Source: Tridacna crocea (lineage: Eukaryota > Mollusca > Bivalvia > Cardiida > Cardiidae). From it: a stretch of 64,000 nt of DNA. The stretch's first letter is position 1. Each line of letters starts with the position of its first letter. The notes beneath the pieces were generated by a model. It searched no databases and was not told where the DNA came from. It saw only the letters and a program-made list of their open reading frames with translations. Where the stretch lies: contig OX031061.1 of assembly GCA_943736015.1 (NCBI GenBank), positions 65,416,192-65,480,191 on the forward strand. Reading direction: 5' to 3'. The position numbers and the translations under genes are program-made. Positions 5,117 to 36,693 of this stretch are shown in pieces.

Positions 5117-5345
5117 TTTAACTCTTTCCCAAACGACAAATTTTAGACACTTCCAAACTGAAAGAGTTTGCAGACAAACTTCAAATTTGAAAAAAAATGG
5201 CAGAAAGTTTTCCTTATTGGTAGAAAAAACTGTGGGAAAAGGAGAAATTGCTTGTTACGAGCAATTTCTCCTTTTCCCACAGTGTTTTTTAAAAGGTTTT
5301 TACCCCAGGGTCGTAAAAACCAGGGATTGTATAGTAAAGGGTTAA
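5117..5345 (-). repeat. TTAA-hairpin element, TTGCTTGTTACGAGCAA core subfamily
   Basis: TTAACTCTTTCCCAAACGAC to GTAAAGGGTTAA. The palindrome centre is ATTGCTTGTTACGAGCAAT instead of ATGCTGGTAACCAGCAT, and both arms carry ACTGTGGG/CCCACAGT. Related cores occur at 26318 and 37648. Confidence 0.85.
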
Positions 5346-5369
5346 TTGATCAATTGTATGGTGTTTAAC

Positions 5370-5530
5370 ACCGTTTTCAACACTGTATAATTATGTATAA
5401 TTTTTGGGACATGAAAATTTTTGCGATTTTGTGAATTTGAAAAATTGGCCAACTTTCGCAAATATTTCTGTAGGCAAGATGCCATCAGTAATTTACAAAT
5501 TTTTCGACAAGCTTATATACATGTATACAG
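5370..5530. repeat. Dispersed repeat with TTTTGCGATTTTGTGAATTTG
   Basis: It shares the order AAATTTTTGC, GAATTTGAAAAA, CAACTT, ATTTCTGTA and AAGATG..ATCAGTA with 5780-5990 and 15170-15350, all diverged. Boundaries are unclear. Confidence 0.4.
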
Positions 5531-5635
5531 TATTTTTTCCTTTTTTTTGAGAATTTTTTTCTCCCTTTCCGGTGAGAAATCTGTGTGAACATGTCTGTTT
5601 ACTTTTCTTTAAAGAATTAAGGAAAAGACTCCCTG

Positions 5636-5772
5636 TAACCCATTACCAGACCACAAAATCTTAGACTTGTCCAAATTGTAAGCATTTGCAGATGACAATT
5701 GCTGTGTGGCTCAAATGGTGCAATTTTTATTTGATAAGTTAGAAAACATTGTGAGAACAATGTGGATACTCT
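5636..5772 (-). repeat. TTAA-hairpin element, - orientation, truncated
   Basis: GTAACCCATTACCAGACC and GACTTGTCCAAATTGTAAGC blocks, ending in the left arm (GAAAACATTGTGAGAAC). Confidence 0.65.
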
Positions 5773-5779
5773 CTGAGCC

Positions 5780-5990
5780 AATCAAATACTGTATAACGGG
5801 AAATTTGTGCAATTTCGAAATTATCACAAACTTTTCTGTTCGCGAGTTATACTACAAATATACTAACATATAAAGAGTGTCTTGATTCCAAACTTCGACG
5901 TACAGAAAATGTCTGTAATCAGTATTTTGGGAAGTTTTTGACACATGTATATGTCCACATGTACAGTAACTAGTGCACTCTCTTGCACTA
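5780..5990. repeat. Dispersed repeat related to 5370-5530
   Basis: GGGAAATTTGTGCAATTTCG, TATAAAGAGTGTCTTGATTC and AAAATGTCTGTAATCAGTAT match the same blocks at 15170-15350. Confidence 0.4.
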
Positions 5991-6074
5991 CAGATCATTC
6001 CCAATCACCTCTGTAGTTGGCTCAGAAAATAGTTTGTTATCATGTGCTGTTTTCGTCACATGACCATAATCAAA

Positions 6075-6290
6075 ATGGCAACACAAACACAAGTGAAAGA
6101 AAGACTAACTGATTGTTCTGTGTGCTGTTCAAACGGCATATGGCCAGTCAGACTTAGTGGTAGGAAATGTGGACAAGAGGGATTTTCTGAAAGGCTTAAA
6201 TGTCTTTTAAAGGACGATGACTTGTTTTTTGATCTTACAAACTTAGATCCATCAGTGTGTCAAAACTGTTGTCATCATTCATGGGCATAG
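6075..6290 (+). CDS. Hypothetical cysteine-rich ORF or first exon
   Basis: A 71-codon reading frame starts at an ATG in good context (CAAAATGGCA) and ends at a stop. The predicted peptide is unusually protein-like for this window: it has two Cys pairs, CSVC near residue 14 and CQNC near residue 63, with two further Cys between them, and little low complexity. The C-x2-C...C-x2-C spacing recalls small zinc-binding modules such as ZAD-type domains, but I do not recognise the family. There is no clear donor site at its end, no known neighbour, and it could be a chance ORF. It lies 3.6 kb upstream of the ZIP exons on the same strand, with nothing linking them. Confidence 0.25.
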   Translation: MATQTQVKERLTDCSVCCSNGIWPVRLSGRKCGQEGFSERLKCLLKDDDLFFDLTNLDPSVCQNCCHHSWA

Positions 6291-6299
6291 CCATTTTTA

Positions 6300-6749
6300 G
6301 CATGTTTGGCGTAAGATTCTGATCAGTAAAGAAGCTTGAAAAAATAGTTCCATTGTATACAGGTAAATTCATCAGTTTGAATGCACATATGCTGTATCCG
6401 GAGTCATATTTTGTTTGTCTACTTTATTATGTTATACATGAAACAGTGAAACAGTAACAAAACATGTTTTCCTCGCTTTGACAAGATTCTTGTCATTTAG
6501 TCCATTGCAGAGAAGTATGGTGAGAGTAAGGATTGACAACTCTGCTTGGAGACTGTAACTAGTGTTTAATTTTGTAATGGCAGTGCCACTCAGCCCTTAC
6601 CCCAAAGAAATATATGGTACATTTGTAGAGTGGTATCAAGCTCTAGACAAAGCTGGATATCTAAGGTCACAAACTGTTACCCATATCACTCACCAAATAG
6701 AAAAGTCTTCCATTGTAACAGCAACGGAATTTATCTAATTTTGAAGTGC
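6300..6749. other. Unassigned spacer
   Basis: No recognisable repeat or exon. Confidence 0.35.
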
Positions 6750-6948
6750 TTAACATTTACCCCACAATCCCGACTTTAAAGAAACCTTAGAAAGAAGCCT
6801 TTTGAAAACATCAAGGGAAAAGGAGAAAATGCTGGTCACCAGCATTTTCTCCTTTTCCCATGATGTTTTCTACCCTTCCTGTAAGGAATTTTTATGTTTT
6901 CAGTCGCATTCATTTTGTCATCTATAAATTCTGTACATTTGGACTACA
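6750..6948 (+). repeat. TTAA-hairpin element, + copy, right end lost
   Basis: TTAACATTTACCCCACAATC. The arms carry ACATCAAGGG opposite CCCATGATGT, a mostly paired change from ACATTGTGGG. The copy ends near TTTGGACTACAAGC. Confidence 0.75.
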
Positions 6949-7214
6949 AGCTGATGAACCATGAACCATAAGCTGATGAAATAGATTATATATTATATTT
7001 CCTCTGATTATTTTGTCAACGAATGCCCTTTTTAAAACTAGTGATCTGACTGATCTCAAATCAATTATAAAAATAGTTACAGATTTTTTGGCAGGAGGAA
7101 AATTTTCTCTGTGTTGGGGAAATAATTCCCCCCCAGCTTGAATTACTTCTTTACCCATAACATTTCTAGAAACAGTCACATGAAATATAATACGATCACC
7201 GGTAGTATATTGGA

Positions 7215-7490
7215 CTTTTTATATGCCCGTCGAAGACGGGACGTATTATGGGATCACCCGTGGCGGGCGGGCGGCTTCCAGGTCTTTGTCCGGATCATAT
7301 CTCCAAAACTATACAAGCTAGGGTTATGAAATTTCATGGGTGGATAGATCTCATCAACGGGGAGTGCAGTGAACAGGAACCATAACTCTTGCTTGCTTAA
7401 TTTTTGAGTTATTGCCCTTTGTTGTTTTTCATACTTGAATTTTGTCCAACTTGGGGGTAAAACGGGCGTATCTTGCGACAATTTGCCGCT
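7215..7490. repeat. GCCCGTCGAAGACGGGACG repeat
   Basis: A GC-richer island begins with the inverted repeat CCCGTCGAAGACGGG and contains TTTGTCCGGATCATATCTCC and GGGTTATGAAATTTCATGGG. I recall this as a common mollusc interspersed repeat. It occurs once in this window. The rest of 6950-8030 holds nothing recognisable. Confidence 0.45.
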
Positions 7491-8031
7491 CTTGTTGAAG
7501 ATATGATTTTAATATTTCTAGATCTAGTGCATAAAAGCTAGTGTATTGTAAATGTTATATGACATATGTTACATGTAGAGGTCCTCTTTATTTCACATAC
7601 GCATTTTATTGACCTTACTTCTTTCATTATACATTTTCTGAGAGAATATTAGCGAAGAGAATATGAGCAATTAGTCTTATTCCACATGTTATTTGTACCA
7701 TACATATATTTAGGACCCTTCCATATTTGACAGACACATTTTTACTGACTTTTGATGCTAATTTGTATATATCTTTATACCAGTCTATGGTGCATTTTGT
7801 TTGCGGCGTTAGACCAAAACAGTTCATATCATACATCTTGTTACATGATAAACCGGTCAATGCCAGCAAATTGTTTTTGCTATATTCAAGCTCCTTCTTG
7901 CCACAGTAGAGGTTGTATGCCAGCCTGTATTAGTCAGTGTAGCCTGCCCATGTATTTTCAGTCATTAAACCTTACTAATGCAAATTGTGGGCCATTGGCA
8001 GAGCTGTTGCCTTGACAGGAAAGAAATGTTG

Positions 8032-8270
8032 TTAATCCTTTATTCCATAGATACTCATTTCAACGCATTGCTTGTAAAAGCCTTTGGAAAACATTGTGGC
8101 AAAAGGTGAATTTGCTCTTCACGAGCAATTTGGTGATATTGCTCATAATGAGCAATTTCACCTTTTGCCACAATATTTTCTACATTATCAAAAGGTGTGG
8201 TATACACATAAGAAACGGCCTAGGGTCAGTTAGAGATACCATAGAAATGCCTTATGGGATAAAGGGTTAA
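8032..8270 (+). repeat. TTAA-hairpin element, GTGAAATT subfamily
   Basis: TTAATCCTTTATTCCATAG to GGATAAAGGGTTAA. The core is expanded: GCTCTTCACGAGC is followed by a second GCTCATAATGAGC hairpin, giving a compound centre. Confidence 0.8.
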
Positions 8271-8480
8271 ACCACTTACTAATGATGAAATTTTGGATTC
8301 GACCAAATTGAAACCATTTTTGAAGACAATGTTGCTCAAATGAAGATTTCTGTCCCTCATAGGCAGAAAACATTGTTGGAAAAGAAGAAAATGGTGGTTA
8401 CCAGCATTTTCTACTTTTCGAACAATGTTTTCAATAGGTTTGTCTATCCAGATCAATACATGGGACTGGTAAAGGTATAG
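8267..8480 (-). repeat. TTAA-hairpin element, - copy sharing TTAA 8267-8270
   Basis: TTAAACCACTTACTAATGATG, GATTCGACCAAATTGAAACC, core GGTGGTTACCAGC; the end is eroded to GACTGGTAAAGGTATAG. Confidence 0.75.
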
Positions 8481-8539
8481 AAGCAACTTATCTAGATGAC
8501 CTCATCTAAATAGATCCTCAATACTGAAATCAGCACTTT

Positions 8540-8930
8540 AACTCTTTACCTGAAATTTTACCGCCCTAAAGAGCCTAAGAATGAAGCCTGTTAAAAACAT
8601 CATTGAAAAAGGAGAATAATTTTATGATGGTCTCCCTCTTTCCCATTCACCCACCGCCCCACCCACCCCCCAAGGGGAGGAGTGTGTGTTAAAATGAGAC
8701 AGTATGGTAATCTTTTAACAAGCATTTTCTTTTTCCCACCACGTTTTTTAACAGCTGTTGGCATCGGAGTCGTCAACCCTGTATTATATGTGTTAATTCT
8801 TTACAAAACAACAAATTCTGGGCTAGACCAAAGCAATAGCAAACAACATATTCACTGTAATTAAGATGATGATGTCTGACTATGATGGAGTAGAAAACAT
8901 GGTGAGAAAATGCTGGTTACCAACTGTCAC
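8540..8930. repeat. Cluster of three degenerate TTAA-hairpin fragments
   Basis: Left half at about 8540-8640 (TTAACTCTTTACCTG..GAATGAAGCC), right half at 8719-8795 (ACAAGCATTTTCTTTTTCCC..CGTCAACCC), and a - copy at 8793-8930 (TTAATTCTTTACAAAACAAC) that breaks off after the core. A C-rich/G-rich interruption sits at 8648-8690. Confidence 0.6.
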
Positions 8931-9105
8931 CAATGACAGATCAAGGCATACCCCAGAAAGGCTGTCGATCTATTCAGGGACATAGCTGTTTACTGTATCA
9001 TATTTTCAATTACATTAGTTTTATGAAATACAGACGAATTCCAGTGAAACTGTCACCTATGACGGCATACTAGAAAGGTTGTTGATCTATTCAAGGACAT
9101 TGCTT
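8927..9105 (+). repeat. Diverged tandem duplication, about 120-bp period
   Basis: CACCAATGACAGATCAAGGC with CTGTCGATCTATTCAGGGAC recurs as CACCTATGACGGCATACTAG with TTGTTGATCTATTCAAGGAC. Confidence 0.55.
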
Positions 9106-9299
9106 TTCTCAAGGAAATAGGATCTTACAGGAAATTGTGATACTTTTTTATACCTTTTATTCATTTTTATACTATTTTGTTATGACTATATATTTATTTT
9201 ATCTTCATGCACTATAGCATTATTTCCTAACACATCTCTCATCAAAATTATACTAATGACTTACATTCTTACATCCTATCCTTTTCTTTCATTACTTCT

Positions 9300-9365
9300 T
9301 CATTGCACCCTAAAAAACCTTGGCTGTCGATGCGCCATAAAAGACCATAAATTCATTCATAAATT
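9300..9365 (+). repeat. Possible retroposon 3' end with ATTC tail
   Basis: CTTGGCTGTCGATGCGCCAT is followed by AAATTCATTCATAAATTCATTC, the look of a non-LTR or SINE 3' terminus. The body upstream (9200-9300) is not recognised. Confidence 0.35.
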
Positions 9366-9441
9366 CATTCATTGACATTAACAAACGCTTAGAAAATGGA
9401 CATGTGCAAAATTTTGTTGTCGGGTAAAGAGTTATCATTAG

Positions 9442-9676
9442 TTAATTCTTTATTAAACAACAAAATGTTAGACTGTTCCAAATTGAAAGCATTTGCAGAC
9501 AACAAAATAAAAGTGACTGAAAAAAAAAAAACTTTTTTTTTTTTGCCAGCCTTTTGAAAACACTGTGGGAAAAGGAGAAAATGCTTATTACCAGCATTTT
9601 CTCCTTTTCCTCCATGTTTTCAAAAGGCTTCGTTCTTGGTGTCATTTAAAGTCAGGATTATGTGGTAAAGGGTTAA
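9442..9676 (-). repeat. TTAA-hairpin element, - copy
   Basis: TTAATTCTTTATTAAACAAC to GTGGTAAAGGGTTAA. The segment between the AAATAAAAGTGACTG block and the arm is replaced by a poly-A/poly-T run. Confidence 0.8.
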
Positions 9677-9717
9677 ATAATTATATCATATTCTGTGTCA
9701 ATATGCAGCAGTACACT

Positions 9718-9870
9718 TAACTCTTTACCAAACTACAAAATTTCATTAAAAATTGCATTAAAAGCACTTGCAGGCGACAAAATAAACATAAATATCTAAA
9801 TTTGTTTCTAGCAGGATAGAAAACATTGTTGGAAAAGGAGAAAATGCTGTTTACCAATCTTCCAAAGGGT
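9718..9870 (-). repeat. TTAA-hairpin element, - orientation, truncated, in ZIP intron
   Basis: TTAACTCTTTACCAAACTAC through the left arm (GAAAACATTGTTGGAAAAGG) into the core, then lost. It ends about 65 bp upstream of the ZIP exon acceptor. Confidence 0.7.
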
Positions 9871-9934
9871 CACAGAATTATGAGCATTGTTTTAGTAAGA
9901 GTTGGTTTAAATGAACATCTTTATATTTTTGCAG

Positions 9935-10300
9935 CACTGAAGGGATATGCTGAAGAGGCACACTCCGAACATTGCACGATTAGTTTCGCCAACACATCGG
10001 CCGTCAGTCATCAACATGGACATCGTCACCACACGAGTGACAAAGTGTATGCGGGAGAAGACGAAACTATTATTAGCCAAAGTTCAAATGGTCAGGGTCA
10101 AAGCCAGGGCCATGGCCATTCACACTGCAAGGACGGCGTACCGAAGTCGGTGTCTGCCATTGCGTGGATGGTCATTCTTGGAGATGGAATTCATAATTTC
10201 AGCGATGGGCTGGCCATAGGAGCTGCGTTTGCCAACAGCATTACAGGAGGTTTCAGTACATCTATTGCTGTGTTCTGCCATGAGTTGCCACATGAAATAG
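9935..10300 (+). CDS. ZIP zinc transporter (LIV-1 subfamily), internal exon
   Basis: This exon lies between the acceptor TTTTTGCAG and the donor G|GTATTG and has 122 codons including split ones. It encodes a His-rich cytosolic loop ([14 protein letters not shown]) followed by the TM4 metal-binding segment [13 protein letters not shown] and the start of the TM5 signature, CHELPHEIG. In ZIP proteins the HNxxDG and HExPHE motifs supply the binuclear metal site, and HExPHExGD marks the LIV-1 branch. The HEIG|D split matches exactly with the exon at 12220. The HELPHE form and CHE residues are closest to SLC39A5/6/10/12 rather than the SLC39A8/14 EExPHE form, so zinc import is the likely role. Exons for TM1-3 were not found in the window. 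Starts such as the in-frame ATG at 9826 belong to the intron. Confidence 0.93.
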
Positions 10301-10472
10301 GTATTGTCACATTTAACCTTTTCCCACATAAACCCTGGGTCTGTATTCACCAACCGTTCTCAAAAACGTTACTTGTATTTTTTTTCAAGATTTTTTGACT
10401 CTGAAAGTAACAGAACGTCTGATTGGTTAAAACAAAAGGTTTAGCCAATTAGAGGTTCTGTTACTTTTACAT

Positions 10473-10775
10473 GTATTGTATGGTACATGTATTTAACGCT
10501 GTTTTCAACATTATTTCAGTTATATCGTGGCAGTCAGTGCACCTATCCATGCATTCCTGGAGTCTCTTTTACCAGTACTCCGCAAAATTTTCTTTCCAAG
10601 CCATTGGCTGCTTTCCAACATAACCGTCCTTGAAACAGCGGTCAGAGGTAGAAGAGGAAGGAATCCTGCTGCAATGACAATGATTAATCCCTCGAAAGAA
10701 ATTGGCCGAGCCAGGGATCGAACCCACAACCCCCTTTTATCAAGTCCTACATGCTACTGACTGAGCTGTTTGGAC
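10473..10775 (-). repeat. tRNA-derived SINE, subfamily 1
   Basis: Read on the - strand: a tRNA-like head (GGGTTCGATCCCTGGCTCGG B-box region), the CCAGGAATGCATGGATAGGT body, and a 3' end AAAACAGCGTTAAATACATG. It lies in the first ZIP intron seen here. The body matches at least eight other copies in the window. Confidence 0.85.
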
Positions 10776-10905
10776 TGGACACAGTGACAAGAAAGAAAAT
10801 TTTTGCGGACTGAATTTTGATATTTTTCTGTCTCTTCCAGCATAACTTGTTCAATACAAACTTGTTTATGAATATCTTCAATTTCAGAAAAAAGGGCCGT
10901 GTGCT

Positions 10906-11129
10906 TTAACTCTATACCAAACAGTCCCGACTTTTGACAACCCTGAGAAAGAAGCCTTTTGAAAACATTGTAAGAAAAGGAGAAAATGCTGGTAACCAGC
11001 ATTTTCTCCTTTTCCCACAATGTTTCCCCCCCTTCATAAACCAAATTTTAATTTTTCAGACATATTTTTCATCTGCAAATGCTTTCAATGTAGACTAGTT
11101 TATTATTTCGTCATTTGGTAAAGAGTTAA
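10906..11129 (+). repeat. TTAA-hairpin element, + copy in ZIP intron
   Basis: TTAACTCTATACCAAACAGT to TTTGGTAAAGAGTTAA with core GCTGGTAACCAGC; the left arm has GTAAGAAAAGG. Confidence 0.85.
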
Positions 11130-11335
11130 ATGGGCAGTGTGCATAATTCTAATTAAGACTGTCAAGGCTTCATTATGCCATTTGTATTCAAATACATAAC
11201 TTGTGCATGACAGTGTATGAATTTCAGGTCAATGCTTAACTTTTCAATTTCTTCATAGAATATAGATTAAAAAAAATTGAATAAAGTGCTATTGCTAAGT
11301 AAGCTTTGTAACTCTCTAACACGCAATTCCAAGTT

Positions 11336-11621
11336 TTAACTCTTTACCATATGGCAATATTTTAGGCTTGTCCAAATCGAAAGCAGATGACAAATAAAAC
11401 ATGACTCAAAAATTAAAATTTGTTGCTCCTGAGATAGGAAGCCTTAAGAAAATGTTGTTCGAAGAGGAGAAAATGCTGGTAATCAGCATTTTCTCCTTTT
11501 CAAACAATTTTTTCTACCCTTCACAAAACAAATTTCAAATTTTCAGTCACTTTTATTTTGTCATCTGCAAATGCTTTAGATTTGGACAAGCCAAAAATAT
11601 TGTCATTAGGTAATGAGTTAA
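11336..11621. repeat. Chimeric TTAA-hairpin element with two right-type ends
   Basis: The left end is of the GGCTTGTCCAAATCGAAAGC (- type) form. The right end is TTTGGACAAGCCAAAAATAT followed by GGTAATGAGTTAA (+ type). A CCTGAGATAGGAAGCC block and a complete hairpin with core GCTGGTAATCAGC lie between. It looks like a fusion of a - fragment with most of a + copy. Confidence 0.75.
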
Positions 11622-11622
11622 T

Positions 11623-11668
11623 ATCAGACCGCAAATTTTGTGCAGTCTGATCTTTATCTACACAGGCC
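11623..11668. repeat. H2 palindromic element, partial
   Basis: TCAGACCGCA, TGTGCAGTCTGATC and TTTATCTACAC: the 5' arm is shortened and the 3' arm kept. Confidence 0.6.
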
Positions 11669-11695
11669 ATGATGGAAAATTATTGTGAAAGGCAC

Positions 11696-11928
11696 TTAAT
11701 CCTATACTACACAATGTCCAGTTTTAAAGACCCTAAAGAAAAAGACTTATGGAAACATTGCGGGAAAGGAGAAATGCTGGTTACTAGCATTTTCTCTTTT
11801 TTCCACTCTATTTTCTACCATATGAAAGATAGATTTTATATTTTGAGTTACATTTAATTATTTGTCGTCTGCTAATGCCTTCATTTTGGACCAATCTAAA
11901 CCATTTTCGTTTGGTAAGGAAGTGTTAA
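11696..11928 (+). repeat. TTAA-hairpin element, + copy
   Basis: TTAATCCTATACTACACAAT to GGTAAGGAAGTGTTAA; core GCTGGTTACTAGC. Confidence 0.8.
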
Positions 11929-11946
11929 TTGATAAATAAAGTTAAT

Positions 11947-12154
11947 TTAATTCTTTACTAAACAACAAAAGTTTGGACTAGTCCGAATTGAAAGCATTGC
12001 AGACAACAAAAGAACTTTAAAATCAAAAATAGAAATTTGATTTGGAAAGGGTAGAAAACATGATGGGAAAAGGAGAAAATCCTGGTTACCAATGCTTTTA
12101 AAAGCTTTTTTTCTCAGGGTCGTCAAAAGTTGGGACTGTGTGGTAATGGGTTAA
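11947..12154 (-). repeat. TTAA-hairpin element, - copy with half hairpin deleted
   Basis: TTAATTCTTTACTAAACAAC to GTGGTAATGGGTTAA. After CCTGGTTACCA most of the right arm is missing. Confidence 0.75.
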
Positions 12155-12219
12155 TAAATTAATAATTAATGAAATTTAATTAAGTTAAATAAATAAAGTG
12201 GTAATTTTTTTTCTTTCAG

Positions 12220-13048: not shown

Positions 13049-13049
13049 G

Positions 13050-13364: not shown

Positions 13365-13390
13365 AGAATTTACACAAAAAAAAATGCACT

Positions 13391-13616
13391 TTAACTTTTT
13401 ACCACTCAATCCCTACTTTTGACGCCCCTGAGAAAGAAGCCCTTTGAAAACACTGTGGGAAAAGGAGAAAATGCTGGTAACCAGCATTTTCTTTTCTCAC
13501 AGTGTTTTCTACCCTTTCCAGAACAAATTTCTATTTTTCAGTCAACTTTATTTTGTCATCTGCAAATGCTTTCAATTTGGACCAGTCAAAAATTTTCACG
13601 TGTGGTAATGAGCTAA
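13391..13616 (+). repeat. TTAA-hairpin element, + copy
   Basis: TTAACTTTTTACCACTCAAT to GTGGTAATGAGCTAA. Both arms carry CACTGTG in place of CATTGTG. Confidence 0.85.
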
Positions 13617-16044: not shown

Positions 16045-16690
16045 AAAGCCCCAGTAAAGGCCAAATCATCAAAGCAAGTGTTATAATACAATTGAATTTA
16101 AATCATACCAATTCAAAGAATGGAAAATATAGTTGAGCTGACAGTCTGTTATCATTTGGTTGGGCCATGTTAGTCTCTGACAAAAAAAATTAGAAATCAG
16201 GCAAAAAGTAAACAAAAGACACAGTTACCTGGCAGATTTTAACCTTGTTTTGAAATTAATTTCTCTGTCAGCGACTAACAGTTGGACCAACAGTACAGTG
16301 ACAGATTGTCATCCTCACAATAATTTCCATTCTTTTAACCCTTTCCCATACAATGATGATTTTTAACGACCCTCAGAAAAAAAGCCTTTTGAAAACATTG
16401 TGGGAAAAGGAGAAAATGCTGGTTACCAGCATTTTCTCCTTTTCCCACAATGTTTTCAAACCTATCAATAAACAATTGCACCATATGAGCCACACTGAAA
16501 TTGTTGTCTGCAAATGCTTTCAATTTGGACAGGGCTAAAATTTTGTCGTCTGGTAAAGAGTTAAATTGTATGATATAAATTCAAATGCATTTAAACAGTC
16601 TGCTTTGTTTACTCTTGGCCTTTATTGTCACTTTAATTTTATCTTTTCTTGATTGTGCATATTTGTTGTTGTTGTTGTTTTAGTAATTTA
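16045..16690 (+). repeat. R8 repeat, copy interrupted by a TTAA-hairpin element
   Basis: About 330 bp of R8 (CCCCAGTAAAGGCCAAATC, CAGGCAAAAAGTAAACAAAAG, ACCTGGCAGATTTTAACC, TTCTCTGTCAGCGA, TTGTCATCCTCACA) resumes after the insertion as TATGATATAAATTCAAATGC and GCCTTTATTGTCACTTTAA. The copy at 20370 lacks the insertion. Confidence 0.8.
16335..16564 (+). repeat. TTAA-hairpin element, + copy inserted in R8
   Basis: TTAACCCTTTCCCATACAAT to CTGGTAAAGAGTTAA. The two 33-nt arms are perfect complements around a single T. Exact TTAA flanks adjoin R8 sequence on both sides. Confidence 0.95.
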
Positions 16691-17113: not shown

Positions 17114-17348
17114 GATTATCCCATTACCACACAATCCCTACTTTTGACAACCCTGAGAAAGAAACTTTTGAAAACATTGTGGGAAAAGGAGAAAATGCTG
17201 GTAACCAGCATTTTCTCCTTTTCCCACAATGTTTTCTACTCTATCAAAGAAGAAATACACTATTTGAGCCACACACTGAAATTGTCGTCTGCAAAATTAA
17301 TGCTTTCAATTTTGACAAGGCTAAAATTTTTTTGTCTGTTAAAGAGTT
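17114..17348 (+). repeat. TTAA-hairpin element, + copy
   Basis: CCCATTACCACACAATCCC to GTCTGTTAAAGAGTTAC. The 33-nt arms are perfect complements with core GCTGGTAACCAGC. Confidence 0.88.
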
Positions 17349-17493
17349 ACTACTCTGAATATTTTCCAGTCTAGAATTTTGTTATTTAGTAAAGAGTTTT
17401 TTCTGTCTAAAAGGGTAGAAGGTTGAGCTGTGAAGATGTGTACAAATTTGATCATAATGTTATTTTCTTGTCTTTATTACATTACTTTTATCT

Positions 17494-18605: not shown

Positions 18606-18740
18606 TCCATCACTACACAGTCCCCAAGTTTGAACAACCCACGGGAAGAAGCCTTTTGAAAACATTGTGGGAAAAGAAGAAAATCAGCATTTTCTTCTTT
18701 TCCTACATTGTTTTCTACACTATCAAAGACAGATGTCATG
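18606..18740 (+). repeat. TTAA-hairpin element, + copy, truncated
   Basis: CATCACTACACAGTCCC then paired arms GGAAAAGAAGAAAAT and ATTTTCTTCTTTTCC without the GCTGGT centre. Truncated after ACTATCAAAGACAG. Confidence 0.7.
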
Positions 18741-18910
18741 AAGTGCTTTTATTCCGAACAAGTCTTAATTTTTTTTATTTGTTTTTTTTATGGGGGAGAG
18801 GGGGGAGGGTGGTAAAGTGTTAGAGCTTTCAACTTGCACTTAGTGTTCAGATGGGTAAAATATTTACTTAGTTTATTAGGATTTGAAATCCATAGATTGA
18901 GTGTTGTAAT

Positions 18911-19799: not shown

Positions 19800-20012
19800 A
19801 GCCCATTATCACAAAATCCTGAGTTTTAAAAACCTTTTTGAAAACATTGTAATAAAGGGGAAAATGCTAGTAATCAGCATTTTCTTGTTTTATCACAATG
19901 TTTACTTCCCATCCACAAACAAGTTTCAGTATTTTACTGACATATATTTTGTTTTGTGTATATGTTTTCATTTTAAACAGGTCTGAAATTTTGCCATGAG
20001 GTAAAAAGTTAA
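19800..20012 (+). repeat. TTAA-hairpin element, + copy
   Basis: TTAGCCCATTATCACAAAAT to GAGGTAAAAAGTTAA. Diverged arms; core GCTAGTAATCAGC. Confidence 0.8.
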
Positions 20013-20234
20013 CCCTTTACAGAGGACAAAGATTTGGCCATGTCCAAATGGAAAATATTTGTAGATGACAATATCAGTTGGGCTCACAATATCACATGGT
20101 TTTGATAGGGTAGAAAATATTGTGGGAAATGGAGAAAATGCTGGTGACCAGCATTTTCTCCATTTCCCACAATGTTTTCAAAAAGCTTCTTTCTCAAGGC
20201 AGATAAAAGTTGGCATTGTGTGGTAAGGGGTTAA
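20009..20234 (-). repeat. TTAA-hairpin element, - copy sharing TTAA 20009-20012
   Basis: TTAACCCTTTACAGAGGAC to GTGGTAAGGGGTTAA. Both arms carry the same change, GGGAAATGGAG opposite CTCCATTTCCC, where the family has GGGAAAAGGAG. It forms a tail-to-tail inverted pair with the previous copy. Confidence 0.9.
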
Positions 20235-25310: not shown

Positions 25311-25315
25311 AAAAA

Positions 25316-27946: not shown

Positions 27947-27969
27947 ATTAAAAATATCAGTCAGATACA

Positions 27970-28198
27970 TTAACCCTTTACCAGACAATCCCTACTTTTG
28001 ATGCCCCTGAGAAAGAAGCCTTTTGAAAACATGGTGGGAAAAGGAAAAAATGCTGGTAACCAGCATTTTCTCCTTTTCCCACAATGTTTTCTACCCTTCA
28101 GAAAACAAATTTCAAATTTTCAGTCACTTTTGTTTTGTCGTCTGCAAATGCTTTTAATTTGGATCAGTCTAAAATATTGTTGTTTGGTAATGGGTTAA
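27970..28198 (+). repeat. TTAA-hairpin element, + copy
   Basis: TTAACCCTTTACCAGACAAT to TTTGGTAATGGGTTAA. Confidence 0.88.
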
Positions 28199-28845: not shown

Positions 28846-28920
28846 ATTGTGGGGCTGAAAGAGCTAAGTTGATCTACAAACGCTTGAATCACATGGTAAA
28901 ATAATGGCACCTAGTCTACT

Positions 28921-30118
28921 TCAGTTATCCAAAACTCCGTACATTTTATATCTAAGATTTTGTATAAATTTCTTCTCGTGCATAGAAAATAAGCCACAAT
29001 ATGCTTTTGTCACGGTAAATTCAGGAGACCAACTACTTTTCTCAACTGTTAAAACAGCTTCTTTTCCTTCACTGCAGAAAATTTTAACTCGCTCTTTCAC
29101 TTTTCGAAAGTGTTCCAATTCTCTCACAAAGTCACTCCCCTCTTCTGATATTTGTTTCTCGAGTCTTGATAAAGAAAAGTTGTAAATTGCTCGGTCTAGA
29201 TATAAAAACTCGCTAATCTTAGGTTTGTCGTTTTCTTGTAGAAGTTTTCTAGGGTTTGTTCTTTTAGATACATTCTGGTCGATGTATAGAATATCTTTTG
29301 TTTTCCAATGCAATATACGTCTCATGTAAACCATCGACTCGTCAAAACGTTCGGAAATAATAATAAACTTGTATTCCTTGTCTATCTTTTGTAGATATTT
29401 GTCAATTTCTTTCTGTGACCTTTCTAGTGATTTACCAGGAAATAACTCTAAGGGAAAACCGAATTCGACAGCCATACGATTGTTCATCTGCGACTCTTTT
29501 GGATCTGTAGTTTCGTAAGCAAGGGGATTTTCTGCGTATTTTGTTAGAGGGTGTTCACCTTTTATTTTATTTATGCTGCTTTTTATGAAATATTTCACTG
29601 CAGATTGGAACCTTTTCATTGGTTCTCGCACAATTCCGATATACGTCGTGTCTTTTGGCATAAATTTCTGAAACTGTCCACGATTATAGAGCACGTGACA
29701 ACACAGGATATCATAATGTTGACCGGGTGGGGGTGGAACTATGTTGTCCTTCGTCAACGAATTATTGTAGCTTATCACGTTCAACCAGCCGGATTCACCG
29801 TTCGTGTGAGGTAAAACAAACGTCAAGTTTCTGTCAGATCCGAACCGTAAAAACACATTCTGGGCTGTTGAACTCGCTGTCTTGTGTACCTTTAAAAATG
29901 CCACGTGTCTGACTTCTTGCGTCACACCTTTCTTTGACGCAATCTTCTTCTTTTTCGGTTCTCGATTTTCACTTTGCATATCTGCGACACCTTTGAACTT
30001 TTGTCCTTTGTCTGGGGTCCAGGTATCGATGGAATTCCTCCTCGATCTCAACTTTTCATCCTTTGTTACAAGGAGATATGTGGCGTACAGTGCACAAATC
30101 GCCACCAGAACGGCAATT
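28921..30118 (-). CDS. Galactose-3-O-sulfotransferase-like enzyme, terminal exon
   Basis: The exon opens after the acceptor ATATTTCAG (- strand) and encodes 398 residues to a TGA. It starts with a hydrophobic anchor (IAVLVAICALYATYLLV), then a basic stem, then VAFLKVHKTASSTAQNVF around residues 72-88. KTASST is the 5'-phosphosulfate-binding loop for PAPS. IVREPMKRFQSA around 162-173 is the 3'-phosphate-binding segment. Both are in the form typical of the GAL3ST family (cerebroside and glycoprotein Gal-3-O-sulfotransferases). Possible N-glycosylation sites are NLT, NNS, NVS and NFS. The product should be a type II Golgi enzyme that adds sulfate to C3 of galactose. The exon begins one base into a codon, so an upstream exon supplies the start. 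The GTG at 30105 is not a credible initiator. Substrate (lipid or glycan) cannot be decided. Confidence 0.9.
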
Positions 30119-30146
30119 CTGAAATATCACAAACACATAGGGAATT

Positions 30147-30617
30147 TATAGAGGGTAATCAACTGGTTGTTTGTGCTATTAAAATTCTGACGCTAGAATT
30201 GGGGATTTATACAATTCCTGCTAGTATGGGGTGTAATGCGGTTGTAAAAACGAGTCCGAAGGGATTCTCCTTCGGAGTCGTTTTTACAACCACATCACAC
30301 CCCATTCTTGTGACAGATTTCTAATATCACATGGCGAGCAACACACGAAGGGACATTCGGACATTTGCGTAAAGTGTCGTTTCGGATCAGCCTGCGCAGT
30401 CCGTGCAGGCTAATCCGAAACGACACTTTCCATCTTTCTGCAATGTTCTGTTTTGCGCAAGTGTACTGTAGCACAAAGTCTAATGCAATCGTAAAGTGAC
30501 GTCTTGGATTAGGCTGCGCGGACTGCGCAGGCTGATCCGAGACGACACTTTACGCAAATATCCAAATGTCCCTTTTCCCATATTGCAAACCACATACAAC
30601 CAGTTGATTATCCCTAT
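30147..30617. repeat. H4 element carrying a nested H3 element
   Basis: Inverted ends TAATCAACTGGTTGTTTG and CATACAACCAGTTGATTA. Internal hairpin GTTGTAAAAACGAGTCCG and CGGAGTCGTTTTTACAAC at 30240-30289. Sequence from TGACAGATTTCTAATATC to CATACAACCAG is split by H3. It lies in the intron upstream of the sulfotransferase terminal exon. Confidence 0.85.
30331..30593. repeat. H3 element with two palindromes, nested in H4
   Basis: Ends GGCGAGCAACACACG and CCATATTGCAAACC with GGGACATTCGGACATTTGCG inside. Hairpin 1 is GTGTCGTTTCGGATCAGCC with GGCTAATCCGAAACGACAC. Hairpin 2 is AGTGACGTCTTGGATTAGGC with GCTGATCCGAGACGACACT. ACAT occurs on both flanks and may be a target duplication. Confidence 0.85.
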
Positions 30618-30854
30618 TTAATGTATTCCTTATTCACCTTTTAATAATTATAAAGAAAGGTGCAATACGAGCTTCAGAACCCTAAGAATCTCACAAATTC
30701 ACCTACAAACGGATGGACAGTTGCATTACAGAGCAGTCAGATAGACAGGCTAGAAAGATCTATAGATGAATGTATGGACAGACTGACGGAAGGGAGCAGC
30801 GACATAGAGAGGACGAGAGAGATTGGAAAGATAAATTAATAGACGGAATTACTG

Positions 30855-31005
30855 ATTAACGAGGGAGGGAGAGGGATACAGAAAGAGAGAGAGAGTTGAG
30901 TGGGGGGGAAGATTAGAAAGATGAATGGATAGACGGACTGTTTAACGAGAGAGAGAGAGACTGAGACAGAAAGAGAGAGAGAGGGAGAGAGACAGAGATG
31001 GACAG
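30855..31005. repeat. GA-rich low-complexity tract
   Basis: Irregular GAGAGAGGGAGAGA runs interrupted by short unique sequence. Confidence 0.85.
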
Positions 31006-31045
31006 AAGTACAGTGTATACGCTGTCTGCGCTTTTTCATACGTAC

Positions 31046-31074
31046 CCTATTTTTCTACTGTGTCTTGGAAGAAC
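31046..31074 (-). CDS. Candidate upstream exon of the sulfotransferase gene
   Basis: On the - strand CTTCTTACAG precedes 29 bp that end at G|GTACGTATG. Reading VLPRHSRKI and completing the split codon with the first base of the next exon gives RHSRKIGIAVLVAICALY. This puts a basic cluster directly before the hydrophobic anchor, as expected for a type II membrane protein. Phase and topology therefore both fit. The exon has no ATG, so the initiator would be further upstream, and nothing convincing was found. A 29-bp exon could arise by chance. Confidence 0.42.
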
Positions 31075-31152
31075 CTGTAAGAAGAAATTACGACATTGTC
31101 ATTCCAGGATTCATTTTATCATTTCAAAAAAAAAATCATCATTTAGCTTAGT

Positions 31153-31335
31153 TTAACCCTTTACCAAACAATCCCTGATTTTAACGACCCTGAAGAAGAA
31201 GCCTTTTGAAAACCTTTCCCGCAAGGTTTTCTACTCTTTCACAGATAAGAATTATTTCAGCTACATTTAATATATCGTTTGCAAATGCTCTCAATTTGGA
31301 CGAGTCGAAAATTTTGTCGTTTGGTAAAGAGTTAA
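31153..31335 (+). repeat. TTAA-hairpin element with palindrome deleted
   Basis: TTAACCCTTTACCAAACAAT, GAAGCCTTTTGAAAACC then TTTCCCGCAAGGTTTTCTAC, to TTTGGTAAAGAGTTAA. The ends are well kept and the core is absent. Confidence 0.85.
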
Positions 31336-31415
31336 GTTATTAAACATATTTCTTTTACATCGACTGACAAACAATTTCTTACAACTCATATACTAATCTC
31401 TCTCGATTCTGCTAC

Positions 31416-31520
31416 CAGGGAACTACACCAGTACTCGCGCCGACTGTGTGGGCCAGTGAAAAGTCCCAAAGTTGACACCTGCTCCCGGGTATTGAACTCG
31501 GAACATTATGGTTACGAGGC
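31416..31520 (-). repeat. Possible tRNA-derived SINE fragment
   Basis: On the - strand: GGCCTCGTAACCATAATGTT followed by CCGAGTTCAATACCCGGGAG, an A-box-poor but B-box-like arrangement. Confidence 0.35.
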
Positions 31521-31599
31521 CGACGCTGTATTTGACAAATACGAACACCACACAATCATTTGATCACATTTAATCTGCCATTTGCAAATGCTTTCAAGA

Positions 31600-31950
31600 G
31601 TTTTTCCATTATATCCCGCTAGATGGCATTCTACAAATGCACATCTATCTAATTTGGGCATTCTTGGTACAGAACCGGACAACTTTTCTTTGAATTTCAA
31701 ACTAAAATGAGCATTTACCCAACTAGTAAAGCGCTACCTTGTGCGATTCATTCAGCTATGATCAACAATTTAGAGAAATCTTGAGCTAAACAGCGGCCTG
31801 ATTTCTCCTCAAAGGTATTGATATAAGCCGTTTTCTCCATTGCTACTTCATAGTGCGTAATATTACAATCTCCCCAAAACTGGGGAGAGTGATACGTCAT
31901 AGCAAACAGGCCGAACCTTGGAAGAATATGACATGCGCGATTTTTGCTAT
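31600..31950 (+). repeat. R5 repeat, + copy
   Basis: TCCCGCTAGATGGCATTC, ACACATCTATCTAATTTGGG, GATTCATTCAGCTATGATC, GATACGTCATAGCAAACAGG, AGAATATGACATGCGC. Same order as 51948-52320. Confidence 0.75.
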
Positions 31951-32216
31951 TCAGTAAAGAGTGAAAGGGTGCTATTGAATACACATTTTATGTTTACAGT
32001 GATATTATATTCAAAGTAAAAAAGGAGTCACGCTATGGACTTTTTGTGAATGAGCGGCTTGCTTTCAATTTCATCTTCTTTACAAGTAGTCTATTTTTAG
32101 AACGAACTTAACCTTTTTCCTGCTTAATAACTAATGTTAAAAATTTCATTTCGATATATAAAACCAAAATATTGCCATTTCAAAATTATGTTTTGGATAT
32201 TATTATCTTCTTATCG

Positions 32217-32281
32217 GACAGTGTAGATCAAAGATCAGACTGCACATTCTGTGCAGTCTGATCTTGATCTACAATGTCCGC
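32217..32281. repeat. H2 palindromic element, well preserved
   Basis: GGACAGTGTAGATCAAAG and CTTGATCTACAATGTCC; centre GACTGCACATTCTGTGCAGTC. Confidence 0.88.
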
Positions 32282-32399
32282 TAAAGGTCAGTAAGTCACA
32301 CTTAAATTCCTAAGGGTTACAGGGCAGTTATTGGGCTTTGCGCCTCTCCCGCCCAAAAAACAAAAAAACCTGGGCACACCCATACTTTGATAAAAGAAC

Positions 32400-32422
32400 C
32401 ATAGCCAACTTTCGCGGACATG
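32400..32422 (+). repeat. Left inverted repeat of a possible 3.3-kb element
   Basis: CATAGCCAACTTTCGCGGAC followed by ATG matches the reverse complement at 35725-35747 at 22 of 23 positions. Confidence 0.5.
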
Positions 32423-32519
32423 GAAAAGTCGATATCGGCCAATTTTACCTGTATTTTTTTATATAGAATTATGAATGGCCTAGGTAAATAAACGCTTATA
32501 ACTTCATCAATTTTCAGAA

Positions 32520-32830
32520 TTGAAAATTATCTCAAGTGAGGTAAGAAAATTCAATTTATTCTCTTTCAAATGAACTTAGTTTTAAAAATTTCGAAAAAGA
32601 AACTTTTGGTCCTTTTTTAACTTAAAAATTGAAGGTATGGTTTACATAGAATAAAGAGGAAAAACGCATTTTCCGAAGTCAAAAACTGTAACATTTGTTT
32701 AATTTTCTTTCGTTGTGTTGAAAAGTCAAAATTATCTCAAGTGGAGTGAGTTACTTTATTCATTTCTCTTTCAAATGGTACAATTTTGAGTCATTTAAAA
32801 AAATAAACTTTTGGTCCTTTTTACAGTTTT
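32520..32830 (+). repeat. Diverged tandem duplication, about 200-bp period
   Basis: AAAATTATCTCAAGTGAGG, ATTCTCTTTCAAATG and AAACTTTTGGTCCTTTTT recur at about 32725-32825. Confidence 0.65.
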
Positions 32831-32834
32831 TTAA

Positions 32835-33309
32835 TGCCACTATCCTATTTTTTTTCTTTTTCCGCAAACGTTCGGATTATGCCGGACTTCGCCGATATTG
32901 GCCGAGTCTTACTGTTAGATAAGCCTGCTGGGTATCTTTATTGTGTTACGTAATGTTTCATTGACAAACGGACCCCCTGCTATGTTTATGATATACGTGT
33001 ATCCACATGATTATAAACTGGAATTTATACCCGGGTTGTTTTCAGATCGGATACCGTTTGATCCTGACAGTATCCCTAAGATGTGTTTATTATGTATCCT
33101 ATTTATCTAAAAGACCAGAATTTAATACTTACGAAATTATTTTCTTTTACAATGATTAGGATTGATATATGAAATAAGAAAATGTACGTTTGATGATTTT
33201 TTTCAACTTTTCAGCTTTTTAGAAATTAATGCTTTATAATTTTTTTTTCTGGCGACAGCTCACAAACTCATGTTTCCTTGCTTTTTTCACATCGGTCTTT
33301 GATCTGTCG
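32835..33309. other. Unassigned spacer
   Basis: CGCCGATATTGGCCGAG at 32891 resembles GTCGATATCGGCCAA at 32429. No exon recognised. Confidence 0.3.
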
Positions 33310-33505
33310 TATCATACAGAAAGCCTTTGAGAACAATGAAGAAAAAGATTTTAACGCTGGTTGCCAACATTTTCTCCTTTTCTTACACTATTTTTAACTC
33401 GATAAAAGATAAGTTCCATTTTTTCCATGTTTTATTTGTCTTAAGAAAATTACTTCATTCTGAACTTCTTAACAAGTCTGAAATTTTGTCTCTTGGTTAA
33501 GATTC
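33310..33505 (+). repeat. TTAA-hairpin element, old + copy
   Basis: GAAAGCCTTTGAGAACAATG, core GCTGGTTGCCAACAT, right arm TTTCTCCTTTTCTTACAC, GTCTGAAATTTTGTCTC. Confidence 0.65.
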
Positions 33506-34523
33506 AAATAACAAGCTTAACCTGTTACTGTATGAATATGGCATCTAACGACCCTGCTATTGATTGTTTAGGATAAAATATGGAAACAGGCGCATTATCT
33601 TTTTACAAGTTATCTTCTACTTTTCAAACATTGTTGTCTACATCACTCAATCGGTTTCTCCTCCAAAGAGTATTTACTATTCAAAGAATGACAACACTAG
33701 ATCAAAATTGACAACTTTTCTTTTACATAAATCAAACAGTTTCTCCCTTCTTTCAAATGTCCCCCTCCCTTTAACATCTTTAATATCTTAATTGTTCATT
33801 GGAAGAATTAGCCTAAACAGTAAGGTTCTTCCATCTTTAAAACGATACAACCTGCAAAAAGCATAACCGCTATGAGTGAATAAAAGAGAGAAAAAATGGC
33901 GTAGATCATGCATGTACACGGAAATGGGAATAATACAAGCTACATCTCCTTTACCAGTAACTTAAAAAGTTACCTTATCATTATTTATTATTTCAAGATA
34001 TATATTTCAACCTTGTATTAAGAATGATTTACATGTATCTTGGTTTGAAACCGTTTTTTAACACATCTTGCTGGTGAATTCTACTGATGCTTAGTTGAAA
34101 TGACACCTTACATAACTTTTTTAGATGAATAAATATCTTTTTATCTTTATCATGCCTGTAAGCGGCGCTAGAGTGTAGCATCGGATCAGTTCACAAGCGC
34201 CACACAGTACATGGAGTGTTCGGAACGAACCATTTTCTTTTATTTGTTCGATGAAAACCAACTTTGAATGAATGCGTTTTTATATGCCGAATCTGTAACT
34301 TTTTGTCTGTGTAAAACCATGTAAATTTACTCTGATGGTTCTGAGCGGCCGTTGTTCAAATTATTTTATGTGCTATAACAGTTTTATTTCTCCGCCTTCC
34401 CAACCGTATTTCTTGTAAAAATCGTAGAAACCAGAAATTATAAAAATCAAAACCATCAAACCACACATGCACACAACAGACAAAGTTTACCCAATCAAGA
34501 TATAACCATTATATATAGCTATT
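33506..34523. other. Unassigned spacer
   Basis: 33530-33560 carries TTACTGTATGAATATGGC and AACGACCCTG, possibly a worn TTAA-hairpin left end. Nothing else recognised. Confidence 0.3.
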
Positions 34524-34995
34524 TACTAAACGACAAAATATATTATGATTTTTTTTCAAGTTGAAAGAACTTACAGACGAAAAATACGACACATAATAAG
34601 ACTTGCTTTCGAAAGGGTAGAAAACACTGTGGAAGAACAGGAATCGTAGAAAACATGTCATATACGATCCCTAGGGAAAATGAGAAATTGCCCACCACAA
34701 GTATTTTCTCCTTTCCGTGCCTGCTTTTTCAGGGTCGGATTGGTCTTTCTTTCTCAGGGTCGGATTGGTAATGTAACTGCCACATAAAGCAAATCTTCTC
34801 ATAAAAAAACAAACCGAATGACGAAATTTTGGACACGACCAAGTTAAAAACATTTGCAGACAACAAATTAAATGCAACTCAAATGATAATGTCTGTCTTT
34901 GAAAAGGTAGAACATTTTAGGAACAGGAGAAAATTTTCTCCCTTTCCAGCAAAGTGTACTAAAGCCTTCTCTCTCAGGTCCGTTATCTAGATTGC
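34524..34995 (-). repeat. Two degenerate TTAA-hairpin - fragments
   Basis: First: TTTACTAAACGACAAAATAT to GAAAACACTGTGGAAGAAC (34524-34650). Second: GACACGACCAAGTTAAAAAC to AGGTCCGTTATC (34800-34995). AGGGTCGGATTGGT is duplicated at 34730-34770. Confidence 0.6.
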
Positions 34996-35109
34996 TGTAG
35001 TGTGAAACTGGTATTCTCAAAAATCCGAATTTTCTGCTGAATTCAACTTGTAGATTTTGCCATGAATATCAAAGATTTTTTTTAACCAAAATAATTTTCG
35101 ACCTATAGA

Positions 35110-35175
35110 ATCAATCAGGTCTAAGATCAGACAGCTTGTTTTATGCAGCTTGTTATAAATCTACAATGTCAGCAA
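35110..35175. repeat. H2 palindromic element, degenerate
   Basis: GGTCTAAGATCAGACAGC and TTATAAATCTACAATGTC. A second very worn piece (GTGCAGTCTGATACC) lies near 35420. Confidence 0.5.
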
Positions 35176-35724
35176 AAGTGTATTTGGACAGATAAGATTT
35201 CAGGATCAAACTACAAAAAGTGCATTTGTCGAGAGCAGTTTTAGGACCGATCAGTTTATGTCTCAGAGAATCAAAACTTAACCCTTAATCCGAGGATAAA
35301 TGAATTACAAACCGACAAATAAAGCTGAAATATAACAATTTCAATGTTCTTTTCTGAAGAAAAATCTCGCTTTATCAGATCTTATTCCAATACGCTGTTA
35401 AGTCTAATAAGGGTGCGCATTATGTGCAGTCTGATACCAATATTCAAGAGCCACACTGTGCTGTACCAGACAAAGGGTTTAGGTTGAAGTCGAAAAAAAA
35501 AATCCTGCCAGGACAGATATACCGTCTTGGCAAGGATTCTGAATTTGAAGCAGGCCACTGTTACGTAATGTTACGTTTCTCTTATCTTTTATCGCTGCAG
35601 GCCATTTAATATCGACTCCTTGTATACACGATGCAAGTTCGCCAAACTCCGGAAACTCCCGGACCTTTACGTATGATATCGATTATTTTCATCGATTTGT
35701 TGATATGCGAGACTGCTGATAAGG

Positions 35725-35747
35725 CATGTCCGTGAAAGTTGGCTATG
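35725..35747 (-). repeat. Right inverted repeat of a possible 3.3-kb element
   Basis: Partner of 32400-32422 (CATGTCCGTGAAAGTTGGC followed by TATG). The interior between the two has no recognised coding sequence. Confidence 0.5.
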
Positions 35748-35809
35748 ATTTAAAGTATATATATATTTTTTTATAATTCAGTTCATAAGCCTGAAAATAT
35801 GTACATTGA

Positions 35810-35863
35810 TTGATTGATTGATTGATTGATTGACTATTTGACAGACAGATAGACTGTTTGGTT

Positions 35864-35905
<42 letters not shown>
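35810..35905. repeat. GATT and GATA microsatellites
   Basis: GATTGATTGATTGATTGATT, then a GATA run, then GATT again; flanked by a GTA trinucleotide run at 35930-35945. Confidence 0.95.
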
Positions 35906-35906
<1 letters not shown>

Positions 35907-36089
35907 TGATTGATTGTAATGGCATTTTATAGTAGTAGTAGTAGTACATGTATTTCGATTTTTATCACGGCGACTGTTATCATAAATGAGCCATGCTCTG
36001 ATAAAAATGGGCTTAATGCATTTCTGTGATATATGAAACCTGGCAAGTCGTCACATAATGATGGTTAGCCATTTTCCTTGAGCATGAGG

Positions 36090-36180
36090 TATAGACTGGT
36101 CCTTTGACATACATGAAATTAAACAATAGCGATAAGTTTCGGTCCAGGTCTGATATGGGTCAAAACTTTTTACTATTGTA
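36090..36180 (+). repeat. H5-related fragment
   Basis: CTGGTCCTTTGACATACATG, ATAGCGATAAGTTTCGGTCC and AGGTCTGATATGGGTC. Confidence 0.45.
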
Positions 36181-36246
36181 AACATTTTCTGCATGTCGAA
36201 GTACTGCTCTAACCAAGAATAAAGTCGTTAATTTCAAAATAATGAT

Positions 36247-36472
36247 TTAACCCTTCACCACACAATGACGAGTTTAGACACCCCAAAGAAAGAAGCCTTA
36301 TGAAAAAATTGTGGGAAAAGGAGAAAATGCTAGTAACCAGCATTTTCTCCTTTTCCCACAATATTTTCTACTTTATCAAAGAACAATTGCATCAATCGAT
36401 CCAGATTGAAATTGTCGTCTGCAACTGATTTCAGTTTCGACATGGCTAGAATCTTGTCTGGTAAAGGGTTTT
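36247..36472 (+). repeat. TTAA-hairpin element, + copy
   Basis: TTAACCCTTCACCACACAAT to CTGGTAAAGGGTTTT; core GCTAGTAACCAGC. Confidence 0.88.
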
Positions 36473-36693
36473 ACTCATTACCAATATTTCAGGCTTGTCC
36501 AAATCGACACCATTTGCAGACGACAAAATAAAAGTAAATGAAAATTTGAAATTTGTTTTTCAAAGGGTGGGAAAAGGAGAAAATACTGGTCACCAGTATT
36601 TTCTCCTCTTCCCGCAATGCTTTCTAAAGGTTTTTTTTTTTTTTTTTTTTTCTCAGGGTTGTCAAAAGTAGGGATTGTGTGGTAATGGGTTAA
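36470..36693 (-). repeat. TTAA-hairpin element, - copy, tail-to-tail with previous
   Basis: TTTTACTCATTACCAATATT to GTGGTAATGGGTTAA. Both core arms carry the same change (AATACTGGT and ACCAGTATT). T-run of 22 at 36631-36652. Confidence 0.85.

Follow-up and report, generated by a model that had tools for sequence, protein, structure and literature searches.

What makes the two arms of a hairpin change together: copying from one arm to the other, selection for pairing, or descent from an ancestor that already carried both changes? The question is raised by a stretch of 64,000 nucleotides from the bivalve Tridacna crocea (contig OX031061.1, 65,754,691 bases long, positions 65,416,192 to 65,480,191; the window), in which copies of one palindromic repeat carry matching replacements on both arms. 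An earlier note, made from the letters alone, had described such changes as shared by the arms of single copies and absent from other copies, and had proposed arm-to-arm correction or selection for pairing. The account that we consider probable combines paired variants inherited from source elements with a slow, hairpin-templated correction in individual copies, the palindromes of the source lineages being kept paired.

Paired changes in the window copies

Each hairpin forms the middle part of an element of ~229 bp that resembles a miniature inverted-repeat transposable element (MITE), and all these elements belong to a single family with the pattern TTAA-CCCTTTACC...GGTAAAG(A/G)G-TTAA. An iterated profile gave a 229-nt consensus, starting with TTAACCCTTTACC and ending with GGTAAAGAGTTAA, in which the palindrome (33+1+33 nt, 67 in total) occupies positions 56-122. 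With this profile, 487 family matches were found over the window and 49 further loci, 92 of them inside the window. A window copy was scored if it runs across the palindrome and has 20 or more scorable pairs; the 63 such copies carry 287 one-sided changes, 24 complementary doubles (both members of a pair changed, pairing kept), 22 non-complementary doubles and 3 perfect palindromes. The copies on which the argument draws are the following (pairs of the palindrome are written d3, d26 and so on).

300..528, plus strand: full-length near-consensus copy
4655..4789, plus strand: subfamily B copy; both arms differ from the main type at d3, d8, d13 and d20
5117..5345, minus strand: copy of the 'mid' type (d3, d8, d26), with inherited variants and three one-sided changes
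6756..6945, plus strand: copy with adjacent paired changes d24 G>A and d25 T>C and a neighbouring unpaired change, tract-like
8033..8192, plus strand: subfamily B copy whose hairpin tip is tandemly duplicated (27-nt period), two tips side by side
13391..13616, plus strand: d26-subfamily copy, CACTGTG/CACAGTG, an inherited paired variant; the palindrome has an indel
16391..16457, plus strand: perfect 33+1+33 palindrome, centre T, in copy 16335-16564 (exact match)
17170..17236, plus strand: perfect palindrome, centre A, in copy 17114-17349
18606..18781, plus strand: copy with paired change d14 G>A, AAGAAG/CTTCTT; hairpin tip deleted
20009..20234, minus strand: copy with paired change d16 A>T, AAATGG/CCATTT; palindrome at 20113-20179
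27970..28198, plus strand: full-length near-consensus copy; with short flanks added, it served as the query in the genome-wide search
36470..36693, minus strand: copy with paired change d6 G>A, ATACTGGT/ACCAGTAT; indel in the palindrome
58247..58313, minus strand: perfect palindrome in copy 58142-58361

The arm strings quoted in the earlier note are all in place: AAATGG/CCATTT, CACTGTG/CACAGTG (from 13451), AAGAAG/CTTCTT (from 18674), ACTGTGGG/CCCACAGT (from 5229) and AATACTGGT/ACCAGTATT (from about 36580). Their absence from other copies was borne out for the d16 change of copy 20009 and the d14 change of copy 18606, each unique among the scored copies, and not for the remaining three. The d6 change of copy 36470 recurs at 41706-41900, the d26 change of copy 13391 marks a subfamily, and copy 5117 belongs to the 'mid' type, also carrying d3 and d8. 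Two of the five quoted examples (13391 and 5117) are thus cases of descent. The many copies said to have perfect arms amount to 3 of the 63, precisely the three that had been named (16335, 17114 and 58142).

Inherited pairs and the decay of copies

In a sample of 366 copies, 185 complementary doubles were counted, against 49 under independence. Sharing of arm changes beyond chance is therefore real, but 111 of the 185 fall at five pairs, d3, d8, d13, d20 and d26, which are largely inherited. Pair d26 is changed on both arms in 22 of the 335 copies scored there and marks subfamilies. Two further groups, type B (16 copies) and type mid (11 copies), have distinct unpaired halves and the same palindrome with paired replacements at d3, d8, d13, d20 and d26, the d26 replacement being found in only 0.60 and 0.55 of the mid copies. 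Pair d21 is polymorphic in B: the B consensus calls it unpaired (left G 0.69, right T 0.50), and it is changed on both sides in four B copies. The subfamily consensus sequences therefore differ at five pairs that are paired and one, d21, that is doubtful. The DNA folding energies of the three palindromes are -37.2 (main), -38.2 (mid) and -38.3 kcal/mol (B).

At the same five pairs, and at d21 of B, linked flank markers and close halves support descent well; the null sets of one of these comparisons contain self-pairs and are slightly high. Pairs of the terminal repeat likewise change together though they lie more than 200 nt apart (149 paired changes against 107.5 expected at positions 8/222, and 192 against 175.4 at 11/219). 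These observations favour an alternative to our account in which each paired change has a single origin in a source element, through a mutation followed by a selected second hit, transposition then spreading it while nothing happens in the inserted copies; as an explanation of all the doubles we regard this as unlikely, on the evidence of the next section.

The comparison that the earlier note had named in advance, of arm-to-arm divergence with that of two independently mutating sequences, was made on 275 copies of the main and d26 types after subtraction of the subfamily types. Divergence of the halves and of the arms track each other (Spearman 0.70), and independence is nearly reached in the bulk, the mismatch between arms being 1.6-1.8 times the arm divergence, where 2 denotes independent arms. 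Unpaired pairs make up 15.1% in the true hairpins and 16.0% when arms are swapped between copies, so that arm-to-arm correction does not account for the bulk of the pairing. In the young cluster, rare variants at G/C sites were about as frequent in the arms (0.025 and 0.036) as in the halves (0.035 and 0.031), whereas those at A/T sites were about 0.6 as frequent (arms 0.015-0.022, halves 0.029-0.033). The A/T ratio of arms to halves was lower still in cluster 6, and cluster 4 showed no arm deficit. The bulk of arm agreement therefore reflects youth and descent: most of it is inherited.

The same data bear on selection for pairing acting on inserted copies, for example as a functional RNA or a protein-binding site. 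Such selection would fit the lower between-copy divergence of the arms than of the halves (pairwise ratio 0.28-0.62) and the shortage of A/T-site rare variants in the arms in two of three clusters. It is at odds with the G/C-site variants of the young cluster and with cluster 4, where the arms are not lower, as well as with the genome-wide changes at d16 and d12 described below, about 95% of which are one-sided or non-complementary. Moreover, selection on each of more than 170,000 copies would be implausible, and we regard this explanation as very improbable. The slower divergence of the arms had also been considered as a sign of strong correction; this reading was rejected, as the difference is largely subfamily variation of the halves.

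Changes probably carried from arm to arm

Beyond the inherited pairs, an arm change recurs in the other arm several times above chance, while most arm changes stay unpaired. This was measured genome-wide with exact core patterns, without alignment and with the other 16 pairs intact, the expected doubles presuming equal mutation of both arms. At d16, singles numbered 5,078 and 4,934 on the two arms (10,012), and doubles 691 against 144 expected; at d12, singles numbered 3,686 and 3,748 (7,434), and doubles 432 against 80. Among the first 50 listed doubles of each pair, all on contigs C1 and C2 and tallied by hand, 41 (d16) and 36 (d12) were complementary, against an expected fraction of 0.40. 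From these 50 places each, complementary doubles are estimated at ~9.9 times (d16) and ~9.7 times (d12) the expectation, the excess amounting to 4.6% and 3.4%, respectively, of all copies changed at the pair. As a control, changes at the non-cognate positions d16 and d12 coincided in 284 copies against 214 expected, which gives a heterogeneity factor of 1.33.

The loss of one base from the A4/T4 run behaves alike. This deletion was found on one arm in 734 and 765 copies and on both arms in 26 copies, on 16 contigs, where 3.2 would be expected, or 4.3 with the heterogeneity factor (8-fold, or 6-fold after the factor; P about 1e-12). The mirrored deletions make up 1.7% of the copies carrying that deletion. 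The arm-to-arm correction proposed in the earlier note is thus supported, as a real but minor process.

The sampled copies were also counted after removal of L001 (which lies inside the window), 11 rows of the L041/L042 tandem arrays and 19 near-duplicates, which reduced 366 copies to 336, and then of 33 copies in which under 20 pairs could be scored, which left 303. In near-intact main-type hairpins (at most 4 changed pairs and no indel; 106 copies), complementary doubles numbered 13 against 2.75 after permutation (p=0.0002) and non-complementary ones 8 against 3.0 (p=0.009). Decayed hairpins (more than 7 changed pairs; 57 copies) showed no excess, with 34 complementary doubles against 34. 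The centre base may point the same way: of 169 near-intact copies, 12.6% have A>T at this base, a change seen at 5.4% of the A sites in the halves, and A>G and A>C matched the rates in the halves. This is the pattern that spacer inversion would give, not a proof of it, as it concerns a single base and possibly an old polymorphism.

Descent alone does not readily explain these doubles. At both d16 and d12 each of the three possible replacement bases occurs, in about the same proportions as in the singles: among the 50 listed for each pair, the complementary doubles had T 21, G 16 and C 4 (d16) and A 18, T 11 and C 7 (d12), against 51:34:15 and 55:22:23 in the first 100 listed singles (chi-square p 0.67 and 0.58). 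As the spectrum of the doubles follows that of the singles, it argues for many events rather than a few lineages that spread. The dispersal of the 26 mirrored deletions over 16 contigs speaks against descent as well, and the halves of two copies that share a double are, on average, no more alike (mean half-distance percentile 0.65 in 86 pairs) than those of copies sharing a one-sided change (0.56 in 3,911 pairs), a weak test that includes the type B d21 pairs, which are close.

An artefact, in which misalignment, hypervariable sites or old, badly aligned copies would create doubles, could find some backing in the raised non-complementary doubles, but is largely contradicted by the alignment-free, exact-pattern counts and by the low non-cognate control; we give it hardly any credence.

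Several results nevertheless weigh against correction in individual copies. Non-complementary doubles are raised genome-wide too (1.4-fold at d16 and 2.6-fold at d12), and part of the excess must therefore come from heterogeneity or from later mutation of doubled pairs. When copies were graded by half divergence, the excess appeared in all thirds (6 against 2.7, 19 against 9.2 and 46 against 30.7) rather than in the youngest alone. No mirrored insertion or exactly mirrored deletion was seen among the 336 sampled copies, and in an insertion that four duplicated copies share (L003, L020, L021 and L022) two unpaired mismatches were corrected in none of the four. Finally, the genome-wide doubles were read as core patterns without flanks, and inheritance in many small lineages keeps a modest chance of explaining them. 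Three loose mirrored-indel matches in the 336-copy sample were discarded, none being at the same position; only the genome-wide count had power.

The combined account of inheritance and slow correction runs as follows. Copies start out with the near-perfect palindrome of their source lineage, and in the source lineages (main, mid, B and d26 types) both members of a base pair have been replaced together. Later, as the excess in the counts shows statistically, a few of the mutations that hit one arm of an individual copy, substitutions as well as the one-base deletion, have been copied onto the other arm; the likely route would be polymerase template switching across the hairpin, or a repair event on a hairpin or cruciform that has extruded. 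If the whole excess arose after insertion, mismatches would be corrected at ~4 times the per-site mutation rate, and 3-5% of substituted pairs would be found doubled while the remainder decay unpaired.

Such a rate would not suffice for the source lineages. In a simple simulation, the absence of any unpaired difference beside at least four paired ones occurred in at most 3% of cases with correction at 10 times the mutation rate and was common only at 30-100 times, whereas the decaying copies fit about 4. Counting d21 as unpaired weakens this demand somewhat, and the source lineages still seem to be under something stronger. The consensus palindromes of these lineages are set apart by paired changes, no more than one pair being left unpaired, and this would call for selection for pairing or a correction linked to transposition, either of which may have acted. 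The selection for pairing suggested in the earlier note is thus needed for these lineages only, and there only if correction was not faster.

The transposon family and comparable systems

Long palindromes of the human Y chromosome undergo arm-to-arm gene conversion, with concerted evolution of their arms. The arms are concerted here as well, but they measure 33 nt rather than kilobases, and the effect is weak instead of dominating. Coding palindromes in nematomorph mitochondria are reported to keep their arms identical while the sequence changes between species, most repeats >30 bp being 100% identical in the part of that report cited (PMC6649704); most of the hairpins sampled here, in contrast, carry unpaired changes. 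The closest likeness is to template-switch mutation, or quasipalindrome correction, for which homogenisation of arms and inversion of spacers are established (PMC8604942, Abraham and Hazkani-Covo 2021; PMC8794818, Monttinen and Loytynoja 2022). There, too, arms become identical by change on both, the spacer may invert and tracts of several bases occur. Compared with the portions of those studies cited, the present case differs in offering very many replicate hairpins of one transposon, exact counts of single, double and non-cognate changes, and a mirrored deletion; its scope is mostly single base pairs. Among the open-licence papers listed, judged mainly by titles and the openings of abstracts, none was found to measure how arms of a hairpin MITE correct each other. 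The mechanism is a known one; what is exceptional is the size of the natural data set.

Elements of the piggyBac type have a TTAA target and CCY termini. The present element is short and of high copy number, with a terminal inverted repeat and a TTAA target duplication as in MITEs, and its TTAA target and CCY ends agree with the piggyBac superfamily. Among the 249 copies with both ends covered, TTAA flanks the left end in 173, the right end in 178 and both in 131. PF13843, the family of piggyBac transposases, is matched 118 times in the genome, often in open frames; these are counts of domain matches. Within several groups of PF13843 matches the scores are equal and the open frames measure 492, 593 and 624 amino acids (aa), suggesting recently active piggyBac elements. 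The TTAA flanks, the CCCTTTACC terminal repeat and the transposases are shared with piggyBac MITEs, from which the element differs by its 67-nt perfect internal palindrome; to judge by these sequence features, it is probably mobilised by a piggyBac-type transposase. The ends of piggyBac carry short palindromes bound by cysteine-rich domains of the transposase; like ours they lie inside the element, but those described in the cited part are of 19 bp or imperfect and near the tips, where ours is 67 nt long and central (PMC11707139). No Rfam family matched at the gathering threshold, and ARAGORN found no tRNA. The element sequence, looked for in papers, gave two chance matches only, and among the open-licence papers listed on such MITEs in molluscs none mentions the family in its title or abstract.

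Genome-wide, 173,858 intact exact 17+1+17 cores were counted. In 20 arbitrary 10-kb regions (L031-L050; 0.02% of the 1.05-Gb assembly of 31 contigs), the family occupies 41,764 of 200,000 bases with 244 matches, or 40,026 bases with 232 matches if two tandem-array regions are omitted. By extrapolation it makes up about a fifth of the genome, in over a million fragments. For one family of elements about 229 bp long, such a share is extreme. The tandem arrays (L041 and L042), recognised by repeated equal-scoring matches and repeated alignments, have units that include derivatives of the palindrome, and the MITE seems there to have become part of a satellite. Copies also lie inside a dispersed repeat of >2 kb that is about 95-99% identical across four contigs (L003, L020, L021 and L022).

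Hairpins outside the family, with arms of 15-37 nt, occur in the window at 10431, 30262, 30397, 32246, 46086, 52431, 55224 and 55701, examples being the AAGATCAGACTGCAC/GTGCAGTCTGATCTT and GATCAGCCTGCGCAGG types. Other features of the window are the following.

9820-10395: match to a ZIP transporter
28924-30126, minus strand: open 401-aa frame matching galactose-3-O-sulfotransferase (PF06990); a comparison of this frame with PDB gave no match
59284-59822, 60044-60245 and 61560-62063: three minisatellites of 29, 31 and 48 nt, about 280 kb from the contig end
62300-62746: match to RVT_1

On balance, we lean towards the view that compensatory base-pair changes arise here by mutation alone, without selection on pairing, at a few per cent of changed pairs and for substitutions and a deletion alike. 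If this is true, any old family of hairpin repeats should show covariation of paired positions. Covariation of paired positions is the usual proof of a functional RNA stem, and the finding warns against taking it as a sign of RNA function in repeat families. The debate on whether compensatory changes in stems originate by selection or by copying mutation has drawn on RNA genes, and in one study the authors describe the strongest evidence they have for short stems being maintained as circumstantial (PMC8794818, in the part cited). Here counts of singles, doubles and controls come directly from more than 170,000 replicate hairpins that are presumably neutral once inserted, and a single genome could show how fast arm-to-arm copying proceeds, with its spectrum, the length of its tracts and its strand bias.

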